DNA of 64,000 bases from Gemmatimonas sp. (lineage in GTDB: Bacteria > Gemmatimonadota > Gemmatimonadetes > Gemmatimonadales > Gemmatimonadaceae). Both the position numbers and the translations under genes were made by a program. Every line of letters begins with the position of its first letter. Position 1 is the first letter of the stretch. Shown piece by piece: positions 16,257 through 39,177 of this stretch. The notes beneath the pieces were generated by a model. It was not told where the DNA came from. It was given only the letters and a program-made list of their open reading frames with translations, and made no database searches. The stretch spans positions 1-64,000 of the forward strand of contig NZ_JAPZSK010000014.1 in the NCBI RefSeq assembly GCF_027531815.1. Direction: 5' to 3'.

Positions 16257-16278
16257 GGGCAGACAGGCCGGATTGCTC

Positions 16279-16348
16279 GGAGGTCGGACGCCGGAGGTCG
16301 GATGTCGGACCCCGGAGGTCGGACGCCGGAGGTCGGATGTCGGACCCC
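16279..16348. repeat. Two tandem copies of a 35-bp unit
   Basis: The unit begins GGAGGTCGGACGCCGGAGG and ends TCGGACCCC. It is present at 16279-16313 and again at 16314-16348, and is absent from the downstream duplicate, so array length varies between copies. Confidence 0.8.
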
Positions 16349-16354
16349 GGACGT

Positions 16355-16520
16355 CGGAGGTCGGACGCCGGAGGTCGGATCCATGCCGGAGGTCGGAGTC
16401 CCGATACCGCGTTCGGAGATCGGAAGCCGGAGGGGCGAATGCCGCACCCCCTCCGACCTCGGACCTCCGAACGCCGTGTCCCATCTCGGACATCCGGCAT
16501 GCATCCGACGTCCGACCTCC
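16355..16520. repeat. Long hairpin element, copy 1
   Basis: The left arm (16355-16435) and right arm (16446-16520) are imperfect inverted repeats of about 75-80 bp that could fold into a long stem with a loop of roughly ten bases. Shared blocks include GGAGGTCGGACG, CATGCCGGA and GCGTTCGGAG. A central block is unpaired. The arms match the arms of the four-helix-bundle element at 32.5 kb at about three positions in four, by eye. Confidence 0.7.
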
Positions 16521-16590
16521 GGTCATCCGATACATCCGATACATCCGATACATCCCGGGTCGGCACTGAGGGCAGACAGGCCGGATTGCT

Positions 16591-16756
16591 CGGAGGTCGG
16601 ACGCCGGAGGTCGGATCCATGCCGGAGGTCGGAGTCCCGATACCGCGTTCGGAGATCGGAAGTCGGAGGGGTGAATGACGCATACCCTCCGACCTCGGAC
16701 CTCCGAACGCCGTGTCCCATCTCGGACATCCGGCATGCATCCGACGTCCGACCTCC
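16591..16756. repeat. Long hairpin element, copy 2
   Basis: The left arm (16591-16672) and right arm (16684-16756) are nearly identical to copy 1, and the loop is about 11 bases (around GAATGACGCAT). The two copies differ at a few positions near the loop (AAGCCGGAGGGG against AAGTCGGAGGGG). It is non-coding. Confidence 0.7.
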
Positions 16757-16799
16757 GGTCATCCGATACATCCGACATCCGATGCAGCCGGGCGTCGGC

Positions 16800-23658: not shown

Positions 23659-24875
23659 GCAACGACGCCGGCGACATCGCTCCCGCACGATGGCGCATGC
23701 TGTGGCTGGTGGCGCTGGCCGAGCTGCTCGGCATGTCACTGTGGTTCGCCGCCAGCGCCGTAGCGCCCCAGTACCAACAGCAGTGGGAGCTGACCGCTGG
23801 CGAGACGGCATGGCTGACCACGGCGGTGCAACTGGGCTTCGTGCTGGGCACCGCCCTGTCGGCGCTGCTCAACCTGGCAGACCTCGTGCCGGCCCGCCGA
23901 CTCTTCGCGACGAGCGCCGCGGGTGCCGCCGTGGCCAATCTGCTGGTGCTCACGGCCGACTCCCTCGCAGAGACGTTGCCGTGGCGCGTGCTCACGGGGC
24001 TCTGTCTGGCCGGCGTGTATCCGCCGGCCATGAAGATGATCGCCACCTGGTTTCGGGCGAGGCGCGGGTTCGCCGTGGGGGCCATCGTGGGAGCGCTCAC
24101 GGTGGGCAAGGCGCTCCCCTATCTGGTGAAGGCGCTGCCCGGGGCAACGATCGGCTACGTCACCGTGGCCGCCTCCGGGGCCGCCCTCGTCGCCGCCGGC
24201 CTCGTGTGGTTGGGCTACACCGAGGGGCCATACGCCTTTCCGGCGCGCCCCTTTTCGTGGCGTCTCGTTGGCGAGGTCGTTGGGCAGCGTCCCTGGCGTC
24301 TCGCCATGGGGGGCTACCTCGGCCACATGTGGGAGCTGTATGCAGCCTGGACGTGGCTGCCGGTGTTCGTGGCCGCCAGCATGGCGGCGCAGCAAGGCCA
24401 TCACGAAGCAGCCAGCGCGCCGGCGTCCGTTGTGGCCTTTGCCGCCCTCGCGGTGGGTGGCCTCGGCTGCCTCTGGGGCGGTGCAGTAGCCGACCGGCGC
24501 GGGCGCGCGTGGCTGGTGAACCTCTCCATGGCCATCAGCGGCGCCTGTGCGCTGCTCATCGGCCTCACCTTCGGCCGCTCGCTGTGGCTCCTCGCCCCTG
24601 TCGCGCTGGTGTGGGGGTTCTTCGTCATCGCCGACAGCGCGCAGTTCTCGGTCATGGTCACCGAGAGTGTACCGGCCCACGCCGTGGGCACGGCGCTCAC
24701 GCTGCAAACGTCCCTTGGCTTCCTGCTTACTGCCGCGGCCATTCAACTCGTGCCCGTGCTTGTGGCGCGCGCGGGGTGGTCGTGGGCGTTCCCCGTGCTG
24801 GCGCTCGGCCCGGCGGTGGGCATGGCGAGTATCCGGCGATTGGCCGCCAACAGTGCATCGCGCACTGACCACTGA
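23655..24875 (+). CDS. Major facilitator superfamily transporter
   Basis: The 406-residue protein has about twelve hydrophobic helices, a polar loop near the middle after YAFPARPFSWR, and the MFS loop motif W-x-G-G-A-V-A-D-R-R-G-R (near residue 275) characteristic of the 2-3 or 8-9 loop. Residues such as GMSLWFAASAVAPQ and RVLTGLCLAGVYPPAMKMIATWF resemble the cyanate/nitrate-like and drug-exporter branches, but the substrate cannot be fixed. The GTG start overlaps the stop of the SRPBCC-like gene. A strong hairpin follows the gene. Confidence 0.85.
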   Translation: MSNDAGDIAPARWRMLWLVALAELLGMSLWFAASAVAPQYQQQWELTAGETAWLTTAVQLGFVLGTALSALLNLADLVPARRLFATSAAGAAVANLLVLTADSLAETLPWRVLTGLCLAGVYPPAMKMIATWFRARRGFAVGAIVGALTVGKALPYLVKALPGATIGYVTVAASGAALVAAGLVWLGYTEGPYAFPARPFSWRLVGEVVGQRPWRLAMGGYLGHMWELYAAWTWLPVFVAASMAAQQGHHEAASAPASVVAFAALAVGGLGCLWGGAVADRRGRAWLVNLSMAISGACALLIGLTFGRSLWLLAPVALVWGFFVIADSAQFSVMVTESVPAHAVGTALTLQTSLGFLLTAAAIQLVPVLVARAGWSWAFPVLALGPAVGMASIRRLAANSASRTDH

Positions 24876-24895
24876 AGACGCCAACTGGGAACTGC

Positions 24896-24933
24896 AAACT
24901 CCCCCGGACATCACGTGATCTCCGGGGGAGTTT
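24896..24933. terminator. Bidirectional terminator between convergent MFS and VPS10-like genes
   Basis: A perfect 13-bp stem (AAACTCCCCCGGA / TCCGGGGGAGTTT) with a 12-nt loop that itself contains the palindrome ATCACGTGAT. The stem starts with A-residues and ends with TTT, so it can act on both strands. An outer inverted pair (CTGACCACTGA near 24865 and TCAGTGGTCAG near 24954) extends the structure. Confidence 0.8.
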
Positions 24934-24982
24934 GTCGTGTGCCGTTCGCGTTGTCAGTGGTCAGCAACGCGCGGCGCGCGAA

Positions 24983-31201: not shown

Positions 31202-31738
31202 ATGACCCCGCTTCGCACCCTGGTATGGCTGGTCCTTGGCGCACTCGTCATCGGCGCCGTGTTCGCGTATCCGCAGCTCCCCGCGTCCATTCCGCAGAAC
31301 ATCGGCGCGGATGGGCGCGCCGGCGGCTTCGTACCCCGCTCGCCGTACGCGTGGGGGATGCCGGTGCTGATCGCCGTGGCCATCTTCGCCGGGCTCGAGT
31401 GGATCCGCACGCAGCTGCCGCATCGTCCGGCGCTGTTCAACTTCTCGGGGAAGGAGCAGCTGCAGCGGCTCCCCGTGGAGTATCGCGGTGGCGTGATCGC
31501 ACGCATGCAGCGCTTCATGGACGTGGTGAATCTGCAGGTCGTGTGCACCTTCATGCTTGTCCAGTGGATGCTCTGGTGCGGCGCGCACGGAGCAACGAGC
31601 GAGACGCTTACCGTGGCCCTGCTGGTGCTCTCGCCCGCCATGATCGTGGTGGCCGGCCTCGGCGTGAGTGGCATCCAGAACGAGCTGGATCGCGCGCAGC
31701 GTGCATACGACAGCCGACGACATCCGCAGCGCCCCTGA
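31202..31738 (+). CDS. DUF1648-like membrane protein
   Basis: The 178-residue protein has about four hydrophobic segments (near 8-22, 48-65, 108-125 and 135-155). The sequence [21 protein letters not shown] near residue 22 fits the P-x-x-I-P-x-x-x-x-x-x-G-x-x-x-G pattern of DUF1648 proteins, some of which (SdpI type) act in immunity to secreted toxins; there is no direct evidence for that here. ATG 31202 is chosen since it begins just before the first membrane segment. It is in the same transcriptional run as SPFH, Arc and hydrolase. Confidence 0.7.
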
Positions 31739-31784
31739 CGACGGCCGCGCGCCAGTTGCATCCCACGCGCCGCCGCTGCTTCGT

Positions 31785-32486
31785 ATGCGCATGCTGCGAT
31801 TTCTGCCCCCGCTGCTGCTGCTCCTGGTCTCCACCCGCTCGGTGGAGGCACAGGTCGTGCCCACCGACAGCGCCGCGGTGATCTACGCCTACATCCAGGG
31901 CGCCGACACCATTGCCTTTGAAGGCGTGCGGCACGAGTCCGCCTCGCTGCGCGGCGTGCTCGTTGCCCCCGGTCGCCCGCGGCTGGTCTGGGAGCATCAG
32001 CTCGCCGAGGGCGCGCCCACGTTGCTCAGTCTGGCGATCTATCCCCCCGGCGGCGCGGGGAGCATCCTCCCGCTGCAGGAAACCGACTTTCTCACGGTGG
32101 GGGACATCGTCTTGGTCACCACCACCAGGCAGGGCGAGCGCACGGCTCAGCCGCTCCCCACCACCCCGGGCGCCATCCCCTTGCTGGGGCGCTCGATGCT
32201 GCACACCGCCTACCTGGCGTGGTTCGCCCAGCAGGCGCACCGCGATTCCCTCACCCTGTTCATCACCTCTTCGGGGAAGACCGTGCACGCCGCCACGACC
32301 GTACGCGGCGAACAGATTTCGCTCATGGTGGACGGCCTCGAGATCATCACCACCTGGAGCGAGGGCACGCTGCTGACCGTGTCCGTCCCGTCGCAGGCGC
32401 TGAAGGTTGTGCGGCTTGCTCGTCAGGCGGGGGAGGACGCTGGGGGGCCGGTGGCGGCCGGTGGCGGACGTTCGGACGTCGGATGA
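31785..32486 (+). CDS. Secreted protein, paralogue of the hydrolase N-terminal domain
   Basis: This 233-residue protein has a signal peptide (MLRFLPPLLLLLVSTRSVEAQ). The mature part aligns with the N-terminal domain of the hydrolase at 29574: VIYAYIQGADTIAFE against [13 protein letters not shown], and ALKVVRL near the end against NLRAVRA. The hydrolase domain is absent. The last residues (GGRSDVG) and the stop are encoded by the left arm of the inverted-repeat element, so the natural 3' end may have been replaced; the protein could be a standalone domain or a truncated hydrolase. Function unknown. Confidence 0.7.
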   Translation: MRMLRFLPPLLLLLVSTRSVEAQVVPTDSAAVIYAYIQGADTIAFEGVRHESASLRGVLVAPGRPRLVWEHQLAEGAPTLLSLAIYPPGGAGSILPLQETDFLTVGDIVLVTTTRQGERTAQPLPTTPGAIPLLGRSMLHTAYLAWFAQQAHRDSLTLFITSSGKTVHAATTVRGEQISLMVDGLEIITTWSEGTLLTVSVPSQALKVVRLARQAGEDAGGPVAAGGGRSDVG

Positions 32487-32570
32487 TCGGATGCGTCGGA
32501 GGTCGGACGTCGGATGAATGCCCGAAATCGGAGTCGGGAAACGGCTTTCGGAGGTCGGAGGTCGGATGCT
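32468..32570. repeat. Left arm of the inverted-repeat element
   Basis: It runs from ACGTTCGGACGTCGGATG to AGGTCGGATGCT. The inner 54 bases (from AATGCCCGAAATCGG inward) are perfectly complementary to the right arm. The stop codon of the gene at 31785 lies within it. Confidence 0.9.
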
Positions 32571-32646
32571 CCCCCTCGTGCGTCGGGGTGATGACGCGGG
32601 CGTGGATTCGGTGAGGGGGAATCGTGCGCGTGCTCTATCGTGGGGC

Positions 32647-33030
32647 ATGCCGCACAATCCCTATCGACTGCTGGTGGTGCAGCGCGCCGATGCGCTCACG
32701 GTGGTGGTTCACGCGTACGCGTCGCGGCACCGTCGAAGGCTCGCGGATTTCTGGCCGGGACTGCGCAATCAGCTCGTGCGCGCGTCGGCCTCGATTTCGC
32801 TCAACCTCGGTGAAGCCTGCGGATACCATTCGCCGCCGCGTGTCATTGCATTCCTCGAGACGGCCATTGGCTCATGCAACGAAGTCGAGCGCATTCTCAG
32901 CCTCTGTGCCCGACTCGGAGTGCACGATCCCCGCCTGTCATTCATCGTCAGCGAAATCGCTGGTGTACGCATGATGCTCTACGGCCTCCGCCGCCACCTG
33001 AAGCAGTCATCCCCTCCGCCGCCCTCGTAG
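32647..33030 (+). CDS. Four-helix-bundle protein (S23/IVP family)
   Basis: The 127-residue cytoplasmic protein fits the four-helix-bundle family encoded in 23S rRNA intervening sequences: an arginine-rich SRHRRRLADFWPGLRNQLVRASASISLNLGEACGY stretch (residues about 27-61), then RVIAFLETAIGSCNEVERILSL and helix four, IVSEIAGVRMMLYGLRRHLK. The I-x-L-N-L-x-E-A motif is the usual marker. These proteins are thought to form basic oligomers that bind nucleic acid; the accessory protein Avd of diversity-generating retroelements shares the fold. The first ATG in a conserved position is used; an in-frame ATG at 32518 lies inside the left arm. TAG overlaps the right arm. Confidence 0.8.
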   Translation: MPHNPYRLLVVQRADALTVVVHAYASRHRRRLADFWPGLRNQLVRASASISLNLGEACGYHSPPRVIAFLETAIGSCNEVERILSLCARLGVHDPRLSFIVSEIAGVRMMLYGLRRHLKQSSPPPPS

Positions 33031-33145
33031 CATCCGACCTCCGACCTCCGAAAGCCGTTTCCCGACTCCGATTTCGGGCATTTATCCGACATCCGACATC
33101 GGACATCCGACCTCCGACGCATCCGATTATCCGACGTCCGACCGT
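33029..33145. repeat. Right arm of the inverted-repeat element
   Basis: It is the reverse complement of 32468-32570 with an extra 14 bp of CCGACATC-type repeat. From 33002 onward the metalloprotease frame is open through this arm but has no ATG, GTG or TTG before 33200. Confidence 0.9.
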
Positions 33146-33199
33146 TCCGATCTCCAAGCCAGCCTCACGCCGAACGCTCCCGCCGTCACCAAGAGTGGC

Positions 33200-35512
33200 G
33201 TGTTCAAGGTGCACCAGGTGGGATCGCGTCTCTATTTCGAGATTCCGCGCCGTGAACTCGGCAAGGACTACGTGGTCGTGACCACGCTCGCCGGCACCCC
33301 CGACGAGATCGGCATCCGTGGCACGCAGGGCGGCAACAACCTCGTGCGCTTCGAACGGCGCGAGAATCGGCTCTTCGTGCGCGAGGCGGCGTATCGTGAC
33401 ATCATCGCCGACACCGCGTCGTCGCAGCAGCTCGCCGCGCAGCTCATCGGCGTGACCAGGATTCTCGCCGCACTCAACGTGGACGCGTACGGCCCCGACA
33501 GCGCGGTGGTGGTGGAGGTCACCCGCATGTTCACCGGCGGCGTGCCCGAATACACCGCCCTCGGGCGCCGCGCCACGGTCGACGCGGCGCGTTCGTACGT
33601 CGAGAAGTTCGCGGCCTACGCGAAGAACGTGAACGTCACGGCGGTGCAGAGCTTCACGCCGCAGGGTGGCGCGCCCGGCGCCGGCTTCCCCGGAGCCCCG
33701 GGGGCCGCCAACGCCAACGCGCCCACCACGGAGATGTACACCTTCTCCTTCGCCAAGCTGCCCGAAGACCCCATGAAGCCGCGTCTGCTCGACGAGCGCG
33801 TGGGCTACTTCGGCGTCACGCAGCGCGATTTCAGCGGCGCCACGCAGCGCGTGGAGAGCAAGCGCTACATCGGCCGCTGGCGCCTCGAGTGCAGCGACAA
33901 GAAGGTGGGCAGCCTCTGCGTGCCCAAGAAGCCCATCACGTACTACCTCGATCCCGCCACGCCGGCGTGGATCAAGCCGTGGATCCGCAAGGGCATCGAA
34001 GACTGGCAGGTGGCCTTCGAAGCCGCCGGCTTCCACAAGGGCATCGTGGCCGCCGAGCCGCCCGCCAACGACCCCGACTTCTCGGGAGAAGACGCCACCG
34101 TGGCCATGGTGCGCTGGCTCCCCAGCGCCACCGAAAACGCCGTGGGGCCGTCACTGCGCGATCCGCGCACCGGCGAAATTCTCGACGCCGACGTACAGAC
34201 GTACCTCAACGCGATGAACCTCAATCGCTCGTGGTACTTCACGCAGGTGGGACACCTCGACAAGCGCGCGCAGAAGCTCCCCTTCCCCGACACGCTCATG
34301 GGGCGACTCGTGGAATACGTGACCGCCCACGAAGTGGGGCACACCCTGGGCTTCCCGCACAACTTCAAGGCCAGCTCCATGTATCCCGTGGACTCGGTGC
34401 GCAGCCGCACGTGGGTGAAGAAGATGGGGCACACGCCCACCCTCATGGACTACGCGCGTTTCAACTACGTGGCGCAGCCCGAGGACAACATCGACCTCGA
34501 CGATCTCATCCCCAAGGTCGGGCCGTACGACACGTACGCCGTGATGTGGGGGTACACGCCCATCCCCAACGCGAAGACCCCGGAAGACGAAAAGCCCACG
34601 CTCGAGAAGTGGACGCGCATGCAGGACAGCATTCCCTGGTACCGCTTCGCGAGCGATGCCGGCGCGGGCGGCGCGGATCCGGGTGAGCAGTCCGAAGCGG
34701 TGGGTGATGCCGACGCCGTGCAGGCCACCACGCTCGGCGTGAAGAATCTCAAGCGCACGATGGCCATGCTGGAGAGCGCGACCGCCTGGAAGGAGGGCAC
34801 GACCTTCGACGATCTCGAGGAGTTGTACGGCCGTCTCGTTGGCCAGTGGGCCACCGAGATGGGGCATGTGGCGCGCGTGATCGGCGGGCAGTACAAGCAG
34901 GAGAAGTACGTGGGGCAGAAGGGGCCCGTGTACCGCCCCGTGGAGCCGGCGCGCCAGAAAGCGGCGCTGCAGTTCCTGCTCGACCACGCGTACACCACGC
35001 CCACGTGGCTGCTCGACCAGAACATTCTCCGCAAGCTCGAGCCAAGCGGCAGCCTCAATCGCGTGGGCAACGCGCAGGCGCGTTCCCTGGCGAGTGTGGT
35101 GAGCAACGAACGGCTGCAGCGCATGCTTGAGTTCGAGGCACTGGCGGCGCGCAACGAGGTGTACTCCATAGCCGACATGCTCGCCGACCTGCGCGCGGGG
35201 ATCTGGAAGGAGCTCCAGACCGGCGCCCCCATCGACGCCTTCCGTCGTCGGTTGCAGCGCGTGTATCTCGAGGCCATGGCCAGCAAGATCAACCCGCCGG
35301 CGCAGGCCGCGGCGCCGCAGGGGCCCGGCGGGGGCCGTGGCGCCGCGGCCCCCGTGGGCACGGCGGACTTCCGCCCCATCCTCAAGGCGGAAATGCGCGC
35401 CCTCGACGCCGATCTCGTGGCCGCGATCGCCCGCACCGGCGACCGCATGAGCAAGGCGCACCTGGAAGACGCACGCGACCAGATCCGGAAGATGCTCGAC
35501 ACGGAGAAGTAG
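33200..35512 (+). CDS. Zinc metalloprotease (DUF5117/DUF4953 type), apparently 5'-truncated
   Basis: This 770-residue zincin is paralogous along its whole length to the protein at 36580. The metzincin-type motif HEVGHTLGFPH gives zinc ligands H377, H381 and H387 with E378 catalytic. An N-terminal DUF5117/5118-like domain (VHQVGSRLYFEIP) and a helical C-terminal region are present. The paralogue has about 75 more residues at the start (lipoprotein signal and proline-rich linker). Here homology continues upstream of GTG 33200 (about 33160-33199 reads TPNAPAVTKSG) but stops at the inverted-repeat arm, and no start codon or signal peptide exists in that frame. It is probably mis-localised or non-functional unless a start is supplied otherwise. 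Confidence 0.8.
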   Translation: MFKVHQVGSRLYFEIPRRELGKDYVVVTTLAGTPDEIGIRGTQGGNNLVRFERRENRLFVREAAYRDIIADTASSQQLAAQLIGVTRILAALNVDAYGPDSAVVVEVTRMFTGGVPEYTALGRRATVDAARSYVEKFAAYAKNVNVTAVQSFTPQGGAPGAGFPGAPGAANANAPTTEMYTFSFAKLPEDPMKPRLLDERVGYFGVTQRDFSGATQRVESKRYIGRWRLECSDKKVGSLCVPKKPITYYLDPATPAWIKPWIRKGIEDWQVAFEAAGFHKGIVAAEPPANDPDFSGEDATVAMVRWLPSATENAVGPSLRDPRTGEILDADVQTYLNAMNLNRSWYFTQVGHLDKRAQKLPFPDTLMGRLVEYVTAHEVGHTLGFPHNFKASSMYPVDSVRSRTWVKKMGHTPTLMDYARFNYVAQPEDNIDLDDLIPKVGPYDTYAVMWGYTPIPNAKTPEDEKPTLEKWTRMQDSIPWYRFASDAGAGGADPGEQSEAVGDADAVQATTLGVKNLKRTMAMLESATAWKEGTTFDDLEELYGRLVGQWATEMGHVARVIGGQYKQEKYVGQKGPVYRPVEPARQKAALQFLLDHAYTTPTWLLDQNILRKLEPSGSLNRVGNAQARSLASVVSNERLQRMLEFEALAARNEVYSIADMLADLRAGIWKELQTGAPIDAFRRRLQRVYLEAMASKINPPAQAAAPQGPGGGRGAAAPVGTADFRPILKAEMRALDADLVAAIARTGDRMSKAHLEDARDQIRKMLDTEK

Positions 35513-36406: not shown

Positions 36407-36579
36407 CCACCACGAAAGACGAAGCGCGCGAGGGCGGCGGCGCGGGCACCTGCCTGCGCCGCCGCCTGCCGTTTCTGCCCCACCCTGACGGACGCCCACT
36501 GCCCGTGGGACGGCGAGGGCCGTAGACTCCAGTGTCCCGCCGCCGCTGCGGGCATTCTTCCCACCCCTCGTCAGGTCCA

Positions 36580-39177
36580 ATGCGCCTCCGCACCATGCCG
36601 TTTGCGGTGGCTGGCCTCGCGATCGCCGCCTGCTCGCCGGCCAAGAAGCCGACCGCGGCGCCGACGCCCGCCAACCGCCCCACCACCAACGCCGCGCCCA
36701 ACCAGCCGCCCGCGCCAGGCCAGCCCGCCCCCGGGCAGCCGGCGCCGGGACAGCCCCCCGCCGGCCTCCCCAACATTCCCGGCCTCGCCGGCGCACTCGG
36801 CGGGCAGGCCGAGCCCAACCCGCGCCCCTACGCCACCGTCGTCACGCCGCGCGCGCGCAGCAAGCAGGGCGTTTTTGCCGTCCATCAGGTGGGGTCGCGT
36901 CTCTATTTCGAGATTCCCGCCGCGCAGCAGGGGAAGGACTTCCTCGTCACCACCGTGCTCGCCGGCGCCAGCGACGCGATCAACGGCAGCCTGTACGGGC
37001 CCGAGCGCGTCATCCGCTTCGAGCGGCGTGACAACCGCATCCTGGTGCGTGAAGCCACGTATCTCAACGTGGCCAGCGACAGCACGCAGCAGTCGCGGCA
37101 GGCGATGAACCTCATCTCGTTCTTCCCCATCGTCGCCACGCTCAACGTGGAGGCGTACGGCAAGGACAGCGCCGCAGTCGTGGAAGTGACGCGCATGTTC
37201 ACCGGCGGCGTGCCGGAGTTCACCGCGCGCGGTCGTCGCGCCACCGTCGATGCGAATCGCTCGTTCATCGACAAGTTCAGCGCCTTCCCGCGCAACGTGA
37301 ATGTGACCGCCGTGCAGACGTACACCGCGGCGCCGGGTGGCGGCATTCCCGGCCTCCCCATTCCGGGGCTCGGCGGCGGCAGCGGCAACGCCACGACGGA
37401 GGCCTACACCTTTTCGCTCGTGCGTCTGCCCGACGAGCCCATGATGCCGCGCCTCTACGACCGGCGCGTGGGCTACTTCGTCACGCCCAAGCGCGACTTC
37501 GGCTCCAACGAGCAGCGCGTGGTCTCGCGCGACTACATCAAGCGCTGGCGTCTCGAGTGCAGCGACCAGAAGGTCGGCGCCCTGTGCGTGCCGAAGAAGC
37601 CCATCACGTACTACGTGGACCCCGCCACACCGTCGTACCTCAAGCCGTTCATTCGCGCCGGTATCGAGGAGTGGCAGGAGGCGTTCGAAGCGGCGGGCTT
37701 CGCCAAGGGCATCGTGGCCGCCGACGCCCCGGCCAACGACCCCGATTTCTCCGGTGAAGACGCGAGCGTGACGATGATCCGCTGGCTCCCGTCCCCCACC
37801 GCCAACGCGCAGGGACCAAGCCTCGTGGACCCGCGCACCGGCGAGATTCTCGACGCCGACGTGCAGATGTACCACAACATTCTGGACCTCCAGCGCGAGT
37901 GGTACTTCTCGCAGGTTGGGCACCTCGACAAGCGCGCGCAGCGCTTCCCCTTCCCCGACACGCTCATGGGGCGGCTCGTGCAGTTCGTGGTGGCGCACGA
38001 GGTGGGGCACACGCTGGGCTTCCGCCACAACTTCAAGGGCAGCTCCATGTACCCGCTCGACTCCATCCGGAGCCGCAGCTGGGTCACCAAGATGGGGCAC
38101 TCGCCCAGCATCATGGACTACGCCCGCTTCAACTACGTGGCGCAGCCCGAGGACAACCTGCCGCTCGAAACGCTCACGCCGAAGGTGGGACCCTACGACA
38201 AGTTCGCGACCATGTGGGGCTATGCCCCCATTGCCGCCGCGCGCACGCCGGAAGCGGAACTGCCCAAGCTCGACGAATGGGCACGCCTGCAGGACAGCAT
38301 CCCGTGGTATCGCTTCTCCGATGACGCCAGCGCCGGCCAGGCCGATCCGGGTGAGCAGACGGAATCCGTGGGCGACGCCGACGCTGTACGCGCCACCACG
38401 CTGGGCTTCAAGAACATCGCCCGCATCATGAAGCTGGTGGAGCCCGCCTCCACCGCCGACAAGACCAAGGACTTCTCGCTGCTCAAGGAGACCTACGACG
38501 GCGTGATCGGCCAGTGGACGCTCGAAGCCAACCACGTGACCAAGATCATCGGCGGCGTGGACCGGCAGGAAAAGCGTGTGAGCCAGAGCGGGCCGGTGTG
38601 GACGCCGGTGCCGCGCGCGCGCCAGAAGACGGCCATGAAGTTCCTCAACGACGAGGTCTTCACCACGCCGGCGTACCTCACCGACGTGTCCATCCTGCGC
38701 AAGCTCGAGTCCGACGGCAACATCGGACGCGTCGCCGGGGCCCAGGCGCGTGTGCTTTCGAGCCTCGTGAGCAACGCCCGCCTGCAGCGCATGATCGAAC
38801 TCGAGGCCACAGCGGGCAGCAAGGCGTCGGTGTACTCGCTGGGCGAGATGCTCACCGACCTGCGCCGCGGGCTCTGGAAGGAGATCTACGCGGGGCAGGC
38901 TGTCGATGCCTATCGCCGCCGGCTGCAGGCCACGTACCTCGAGGCCATGGCGAGCAAGATCAAGCCCGCCGCACCCAGCGCGCAGGACGTGGCGCTCGCG
39001 GCGTTCTTTGGTCCCATCGTGAACACGCGCGACTTCCGTCCGCTGCTCAAGGACGAAATGCGGACCCTCGACCGCGAGCTGGCCGCGGCGATTGGCCGCA
39101 CGGGAGACCGTGCCACGCGCGCGCACCTGCAGGACGCGCGCGACCAGATCGAGGCGATGCTCGACACGGGCAAGTAA
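36580..39177 (+). CDS. Zinc metalloprotease lipoprotein (DUF5117/DUF4953 type)
   Basis: This 865-residue intact paralogue of the gene at 33200 has a lipoprotein signal peptide ending in LAIAAC (Cys near residue 19). A Pro/Ala-rich linker with repeated PGQPA units follows to about residue 60, then the DUF5117/5118-like region (VHQVGSRLYFEIPAAQQGKDF) and a zincin domain with HEVGHTLGFRH (zinc ligands H473, H477, H483; catalytic E474). The C-terminal helical region ends ARDQIEAMLDTGK. It presumably acts outside the cytoplasm on peptides; no substrate is known. ATG 36580 is chosen since it starts right before the signal peptide. Confidence 0.88.
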   Translation: MRLRTMPFAVAGLAIAACSPAKKPTAAPTPANRPTTNAAPNQPPAPGQPAPGQPAPGQPPAGLPNIPGLAGALGGQAEPNPRPYATVVTPRARSKQGVFAVHQVGSRLYFEIPAAQQGKDFLVTTVLAGASDAINGSLYGPERVIRFERRDNRILVREATYLNVASDSTQQSRQAMNLISFFPIVATLNVEAYGKDSAAVVEVTRMFTGGVPEFTARGRRATVDANRSFIDKFSAFPRNVNVTAVQTYTAAPGGGIPGLPIPGLGGGSGNATTEAYTFSLVRLPDEPMMPRLYDRRVGYFVTPKRDFGSNEQRVVSRDYIKRWRLECSDQKVGALCVPKKPITYYVDPATPSYLKPFIRAGIEEWQEAFEAAGFAKGIVAADAPANDPDFSGEDASVTMIRWLPSPTANAQGPSLVDPRTGEILDADVQMYHNILDLQREWYFSQVGHLDKRAQRFPFPDTLMGRLVQFVVAHEVGHTLGFRHNFKGSSMYPLDSIRSRSWVTKMGHSPSIMDYARFNYVAQPEDNLPLETLTPKVGPYDKFATMWGYAPIAAARTPEAELPKLDEWARLQDSIPWYRFSDDASAGQADPGEQTESVGDADAVRATTLGFKNIARIMKLVEPASTADKTKDFSLLKETYDGVIGQWTLEANHVTKIIGGVDRQEKRVSQSGPVWTPVPRARQKTAMKFLNDEVFTTPAYLTDVSILRKLESDGNIGRVAGAQARVLSSLVSNARLQRMIELEATAGSKASVYSLGEMLTDLRRGLWKEIYAGQAVDAYRRRLQATYLEAMASKIKPAAPSAQDVALAAFFGPIVNTRDFRPLLKDEMRTLDRELAAAIGRTGDRATRAHLQDARDQIEAMLDTGK

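Follow-up and report, generated by a model that had tools for sequence, protein, structure and literature searches.

STRR heptanucleotide repeats are tandem arrays of 7-nt units found in the intergenic DNA of cyanobacteria. The S23/IVP four-helix-bundle (4HB) proteins, recognised by the profiles PF05635 and TIGR02436, are widespread and, to our knowledge, have no assigned role outside rRNA; we also know of no catalytic site or motif in a 4HB protein and of no nuclease activity. A gene enclosed by its own repeats is described for the RAYTs, which lie between two inverted repeats, coevolve with them, keep a conserved position and evolve faster than their neighbours, and RAYT repeats are plentiful wherever the matching gene occurs (PMC2817692). 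Homology between PF05635 and the DGR accessory protein Avd has also been noted (PMC10053308).

Here we analysed a window, the whole stretch of 64,000 nt of Gemmatimonas DNA, in which a 4HB gene lies between two long inverted arms. We conclude that the locus belongs to a real, recurrent, mobile or once-mobile repeat system on RAYT/REP lines. The element and its neighbours are arranged as follows.

31668 to 32486, + strand: left host gene, whose final codons extend into the left arm
32468 to 32570, + strand: left (upstream) arm, 103 bp, with its G-rich strand on +
32571 to 32646, + strand: promoter-like block in the gap between arm and gene, with GGTGA at 32610-32614 and TATCGT at 32636-32641
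32647 to 33030, + strand: 4HB gene of the S23/IVP family, 127 aa, identified by PF05635, TIGR02436, AlphaFold and Foldseek
33029 to 33145, - strand: right (downstream) arm, 117 bp, an inverted copy of the left arm and about 14 bases longer
33146 to 35512, + strand: metalloprotease-like gene, 5' end cut off beside the right arm, with homology from 33181

The original prediction, made from the sequence alone, described two inverted arms enclosing an S23/IVP-family 4HB gene whose stop codon runs into the right arm, and this is the anatomy found: the arms occupy the positions given above and the right arm starts within the stop codon TAG (33028-33030). The arms are nearly identical, as had been claimed, with two mismatches in an optimal alignment, where the prediction gave about four; the heptad array of the right arm also has about 14 extra bases. 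Because the extra bases sit in that array, the arms differ in length through inserted array units. The left arm contains heptad units such as TCGGAGG, TCGGACG and TCGGATG together with the core ATGCCCGAAATCGGAGTCGGGAAACGGCTTTCGGAG. Among the 44 long ORFs of the window, only the 4HB gene was flanked by an inverted repeat with a score above 20; its arm score was 79 and the other 43 scored at most 18. A chance one-off inverted repeat is excluded, given that 1 of 44 window ORFs carries the arms and that the arrangement recurs across the genus. An Rfam search of the 64,000-nt window returned no rRNA or other Rfam family and the flanks are protein genes, in agreement with the expectation that no rRNA lies nearby.

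The window 4HB protein matched PF05635 with an E-value of 1e-13 (51.9 bits against a cut-off of 33.8) and TIGR02436, 'four helix bundle protein', with an E-value of 4e-17. Its AlphaFold model has a pLDDT of 94, and Foldseek matched the model to the S23-family structures 2gsc and 2rld, with weaker matches to the DGR Avd structure 4dwl and the DGR ribonucleoprotein 8ub7. Both a profile score above cut-off and a four-helix-bundle fold thus place the protein in the S23/IVP family. Structure 2gsc is an assembly of five four-helix bundles according to its title as cited by PMC3936711. Because of the likeness to Avd, we infer that the 4HB protein may act as a nucleic-acid-binding ring. The gene likely starts at ATG 32647, rather than at ATG 32518 within the left arm, because relatives begin there and the promoter-like block ends there. 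In the consensus of 89 congeneric 4HB loci, this block is conserved at positions -38, -36 and -10 to -1 from the ATG. The conservation suggests a promoter, which probably gives a leaderless mRNA.

The left host gene adjoins the element only in G005 among the relatives searched, and the window element is inverted relative to its G005 counterpart. On the other side, the metalloprotease-like gene no longer encodes a lipoprotein signal and linker (about 85 aa), and its start is missing too; the N-terminus is intact in 10 congeners, and the gene is absent altogether in G005. The window also holds two adjacent paralogous metalloprotease-like genes, at 33200-35512 and 36532-39177.

The genome that carries the window contains nine PF05635 genes, and the majority of the remaining eight are flanked by inverted arms of their own, different from those of the window. 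In a genus sample made up of records titled Gemmatimonas, PF05635 was present in 28 of 30 genomes. At 67 of the 86 genus loci with full flanks (78%), the gene was enclosed by an inverted repeat with a score above 20, compared with 3.1% of mismatched upstream and downstream flank pairs, many of these pairs being homologous host flanks that stand in opposite orientations. The remaining 22% of loci had no strong inverted repeat at this strict cut-off and include many orthologues at one site. Homologues in the same context without arms had been named in advance as a sign against a mobile unit. Such homologues were found, chiefly at a single old site next to a gene that we take, from our own reading of the flanking sequence, to be ychF, where they look like armless residents, and most genus loci are armed. 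Separately, a 100-bp near-palindrome at 24865-24964 of the window (...AACTGCAAACTCCCC/GGGGGAGTTTG...) resembles the hairpin downstream of an armless 4HB gene at locus L009 (ACTACAAACTCCCC).

Similarity between the arms of different loci followed the identity of the 4HB proteins. Arms were alike in all pairs of proteins at least 90% identical, in 78% of pairs at 80-90%, in 37% at 70-80% and in none below 60%. Within one genome, the arms of different 4HB elements were almost never similar. By these sequence comparisons each 4HB lineage has arms of its own, with the tracking partly confounded with overall divergence. The other sign named in advance against a mobile unit, arms absent near any other such gene, is thus not borne out in spirit. 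The 97 genus 4HB loci reduce to 26 host sites, and most genes keep the same site across the genus; the protein tree shows sites that are nearly monophyletic, needing 16 label changes where 14 is the minimum and shuffled labels give 61. This constancy of site means that the gene itself seldom moves. Both element orientations were found at 10 of 15 shared sites. Furthermore, the 4HB proteins outpace their host flanks, differing by up to 30% where flanks are up to 98% identical. At one site, presumably beside rpoC, the proteins of L012 and L132 are 70% identical and the host flanks 92-98%, reflecting unusually fast change or replacement. By these comparisons, the gene sites are old and the arms turn over fast yet stay mutually matched. 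The suggestion that the arms are recent has to be qualified in this sense.

Arms also occur away from any 4HB gene. Genome-wide counts were taken from BLAST hits with arm queries, which placed the window arm family at about 30-33 places in its own genome, mostly as gene-less hairpins, and the arm families of L015, L010 and L012 at 26, 15 and 14 places. L010-family arms are located at or close to the ends of contigs C1, C4, C5, C8, C12 and C20 of this genome; repeats of this type seem to interrupt the assembly, and their counts are probably too low. Among 40 neighbouring arm pairs, 30 were head-to-head (+,-), 5 tail-to-tail and 5 tandem. The head-to-head order of gene-less pairs is that of the gene-bearing unit, and 26 of the 30 head-to-head pairs, drawn from four arm families, are gene-less, with loops of about 15-200 bases. 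Two such hairpins of the window arm family lie in the window itself.

16312 to 16539, no strand assigned: gene-less hairpin with arms at 16312-16431 and 16452-16539, loop 20 bp
16582 to 16782, no strand assigned: second gene-less hairpin with arms at 16582-16667 and 16688-16782, loop 20 bp

Both stand in tandem at 16275-16790, between coding regions. In a search of 40 relatives, matches to the window arm family were confined to the window's own genome and G005, the sole carriers of the window 4HB gene.

Alignment of filled and empty sites identified three hairpins, H1, H2 and H4, whose flanks are contiguous at the orthologous sites of several congeners. Empty sites were found for H1 in G001, G003, G042 and G044, for H2 in G042, G003, G020 and others, and for H4 in G001 and G004. 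In G005 the H1 site holds a matching hairpin, and the H2 and H4 sites hold larger inserts that contain repeats. Additionally, G006 contains a complete 2-kb element in duplicate, at two loci with unrelated flanks; the two genes share 356 of 360 bases. Together with the recurrent arms and the other armed 4HB genes, the three empty sites and this duplication support the original prediction of a mobile or once-mobile hairpin element. Of the classical transposon or MITE features, inverted repeats and empty sites are present; no target-site duplication was seen in the alignments at H1, H2 and H4, and no cognate transposase was found.

A scan of GTDB genomes extended the comparison to 4HB loci from other bacterial phyla (Cyanobacteria, Chloroflexota, Bacteroidota, Acidobacteriota, Planctomycetota, Pseudomonadota and candidate phyla) and to two archaeal records. 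Flanking inverted repeats scored above 20 at 22 of 68 loci outside the genus, versus 0.7% of cross pairs. A second sample, drawn from PF05635 matches in 30 of the scanned genomes and not by query similarity, gave 9 of 29 versus 0 of 786 cross pairs. Pooled across the other phyla, inverted arms are present at 31 of 97 loci at the strict cut-off, more than half of the loci being without a strong repeat. Period 7 or 14 fitted best in 69 of 148 near flanks versus 5 of 135 far flanks, and autocorrelation peaks at lags 7 and 14 were confined to the near flanks. On the gene strand, most loci have a G-rich arm upstream and a C-rich arm downstream. Arrays have a median of 4.7 units, for example six copies of AGGGAAT in Sphaerospermopsis, AGGTNTC in Chloroploca and GTGAATG in Mesorhizobium; a few loci (L303, L305, L311 and L297) have 8-nt units, such as GGGCAGTA in Mesorhizobium. 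Arms are not a general feature of small genes, as the other window ORFs and the far flanks are without them, although Y1 transposase genes also carry inverted repeats, of another type. Phage cargo was rejected because no relative of a congeneric 4HB query was found among 50,697 phage records. A relative of this query was present in 15 plasmid records, mostly cyanobacterial.

These observations bear on several explanations of the element. An IVS-like RNA element, in which RNase III cuts out the transcript stem and the 4HB protein binds the stem or hitch-hikes, would resemble the Coxiella IVS, which has the same protein family and plan (28-bp stem, S23 ORF and demonstrated RNase III excision; PMC4990558). 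The RNA stem is indeed very stable, the element folding at -415 kcal/mol versus -289 +/- 7.5 for shuffled sequences (z -16.8). However, the element lies between protein genes and has a promoter-like block of its own with a probable leaderless start, so that read-through from a host transcript would not be required. Congeneric elements stand in either orientation to their neighbours, and host-gene function needs no excision. RNA processing alone accounts for neither the dispersed gene-less DNA copies nor the empty sites, and we regard this explanation as quite improbable. We judge it unlikely that the system is a domesticated host function, with the hairpins as terminators or structural sites and the 4HB protein as a useful binding factor kept by selection. 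The long conservation of many 4HB genes in position and the location of hairpin H1 where the left host gene ends are consistent with such a role, but the fast change of arms and protein between orthologous sites, the orientation flips and the truncation or loss of a neighbouring gene fit selfish dynamics better.

In a third rival explanation, a Y1 transposase of the IS200/RAYT type would move the hairpins in trans and the 4HB gene would be a passenger or regulator. RAYT/REP systems share the layout (PMC2817692), and the window's own genome encodes one Y1 transposase, on another contig than the window and itself between inverted arrays. This gene, at L331 1200-2100, is the only one in the genome; its arrays have the 12-nt unit GGAGCTGGGGTC, and the same type occurs in G005 (L335). 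However, Y1_Tnp is present in 8 of 30 congeners versus 28 of 30 for 4HB genes, and it is absent from 9 of 30 genomes of other phyla, several of them with heptad arms (for example at the Mesorhizobium and Brevundimonas loci). Y1 gene flanks carry classical REP-like palindromes or GGGGTCAGAG units and no heptads. The patchy presence of Y1 genes and the different repeats beside them rule out RAYT/Y1 as a general driver, and movement of these hairpins in trans by a Y1 transposase is very unlikely.

The explanation we prefer, with a probability of roughly 0.6, is that the window element serves as the 'master' copy, the one with the gene, in a selfish, RAYT/REPIN-like repeat system driven by a pentamer-forming S23/IVP 4HB protein. 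Each unit would consist of inverted short-tandem-repeat arms, typically with 7-nt units, a promoter of its own and the 4HB gene. The protein would recognise the sequence of its own arms, in the form of RNA or of single-stranded hairpin DNA, and its five-fold ring or barrel may read successive heptads. With host replication and recombination enzymes, and no nuclease of its own, it could promote the spread and homogenisation of the arms. The outcome would be gene-less hairpins at intergenic sites, with the whole unit moved rarely. Recombination between matched arms would flip the gene in place and erode its neighbours, here the 5' end of the metalloprotease gene.

A broader proposal, which we hold tentatively and consider possible at best, is that S23/IVP 4HB proteins drive 7-nt repeat hairpins, including the cyanobacterial STRRs, in bacteria and some archaea. 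A pentameric ring, taking one heptad of its own lineage per subunit, would spread these hairpins with neither a transposase nor a reverse transcriptase, and the systems would form a new class of mobile system. If true, this would give a function to the large orphan family PF05635/TIGR02436 and an origin to STRR-type repeats. The selfish-repeat system is apparently widespread but undescribed; our literature search turned up no paper that connects 4HB proteins with heptamer repeats, and it lay outside most subscription journals and bioRxiv, so that a prior report is possible.

Four described systems resemble the window element in part. Avd shares the four-helix fold (4dwl, 8ub7); a DGR was rejected here, as a profile search of the window's own genome found no reverse transcriptase (PF00078). 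The 23S rRNA IVSs of Leptospira and Coxiella with an S23/IVP ORF have the same protein family and place the ORF in a hairpin loop, whereas the present element lies outside rRNA and has long tandem-repeat arms, its own promoter-like block and dispersed gene-less copies. The cyanobacterial STRRs are likewise 7-nt tandem arrays, and cyanobacterial 4HB loci carry AGGGAAT-type arrays, but no paper we found links STRRs to a 4HB gene. RAYT/REP systems, including REPINs and BIMEs, are similar in their single gene between inverted copies of its own repeat, their dispersed gene-less copies, a repeat that tracks the protein, orthologues that stay put and outpace their neighbours, and cognate repeats in the genomes that carry the gene. 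In contrast, the protein here is a 4HB protein, matching PF05635/TIGR02436 only and no HUH/Y1 profile, and the repeats are mostly 7-nt tandem arrays in place of the single GTAG-headed, GT(A/G)G palindromes of RAYTs. With a different protein family and repeat type, the window system is therefore not a RAYT. If our broader proposal is true, it would be a second, independently evolved counterpart of RAYT/REP, with an Avd-fold protein instead of a nuclease.
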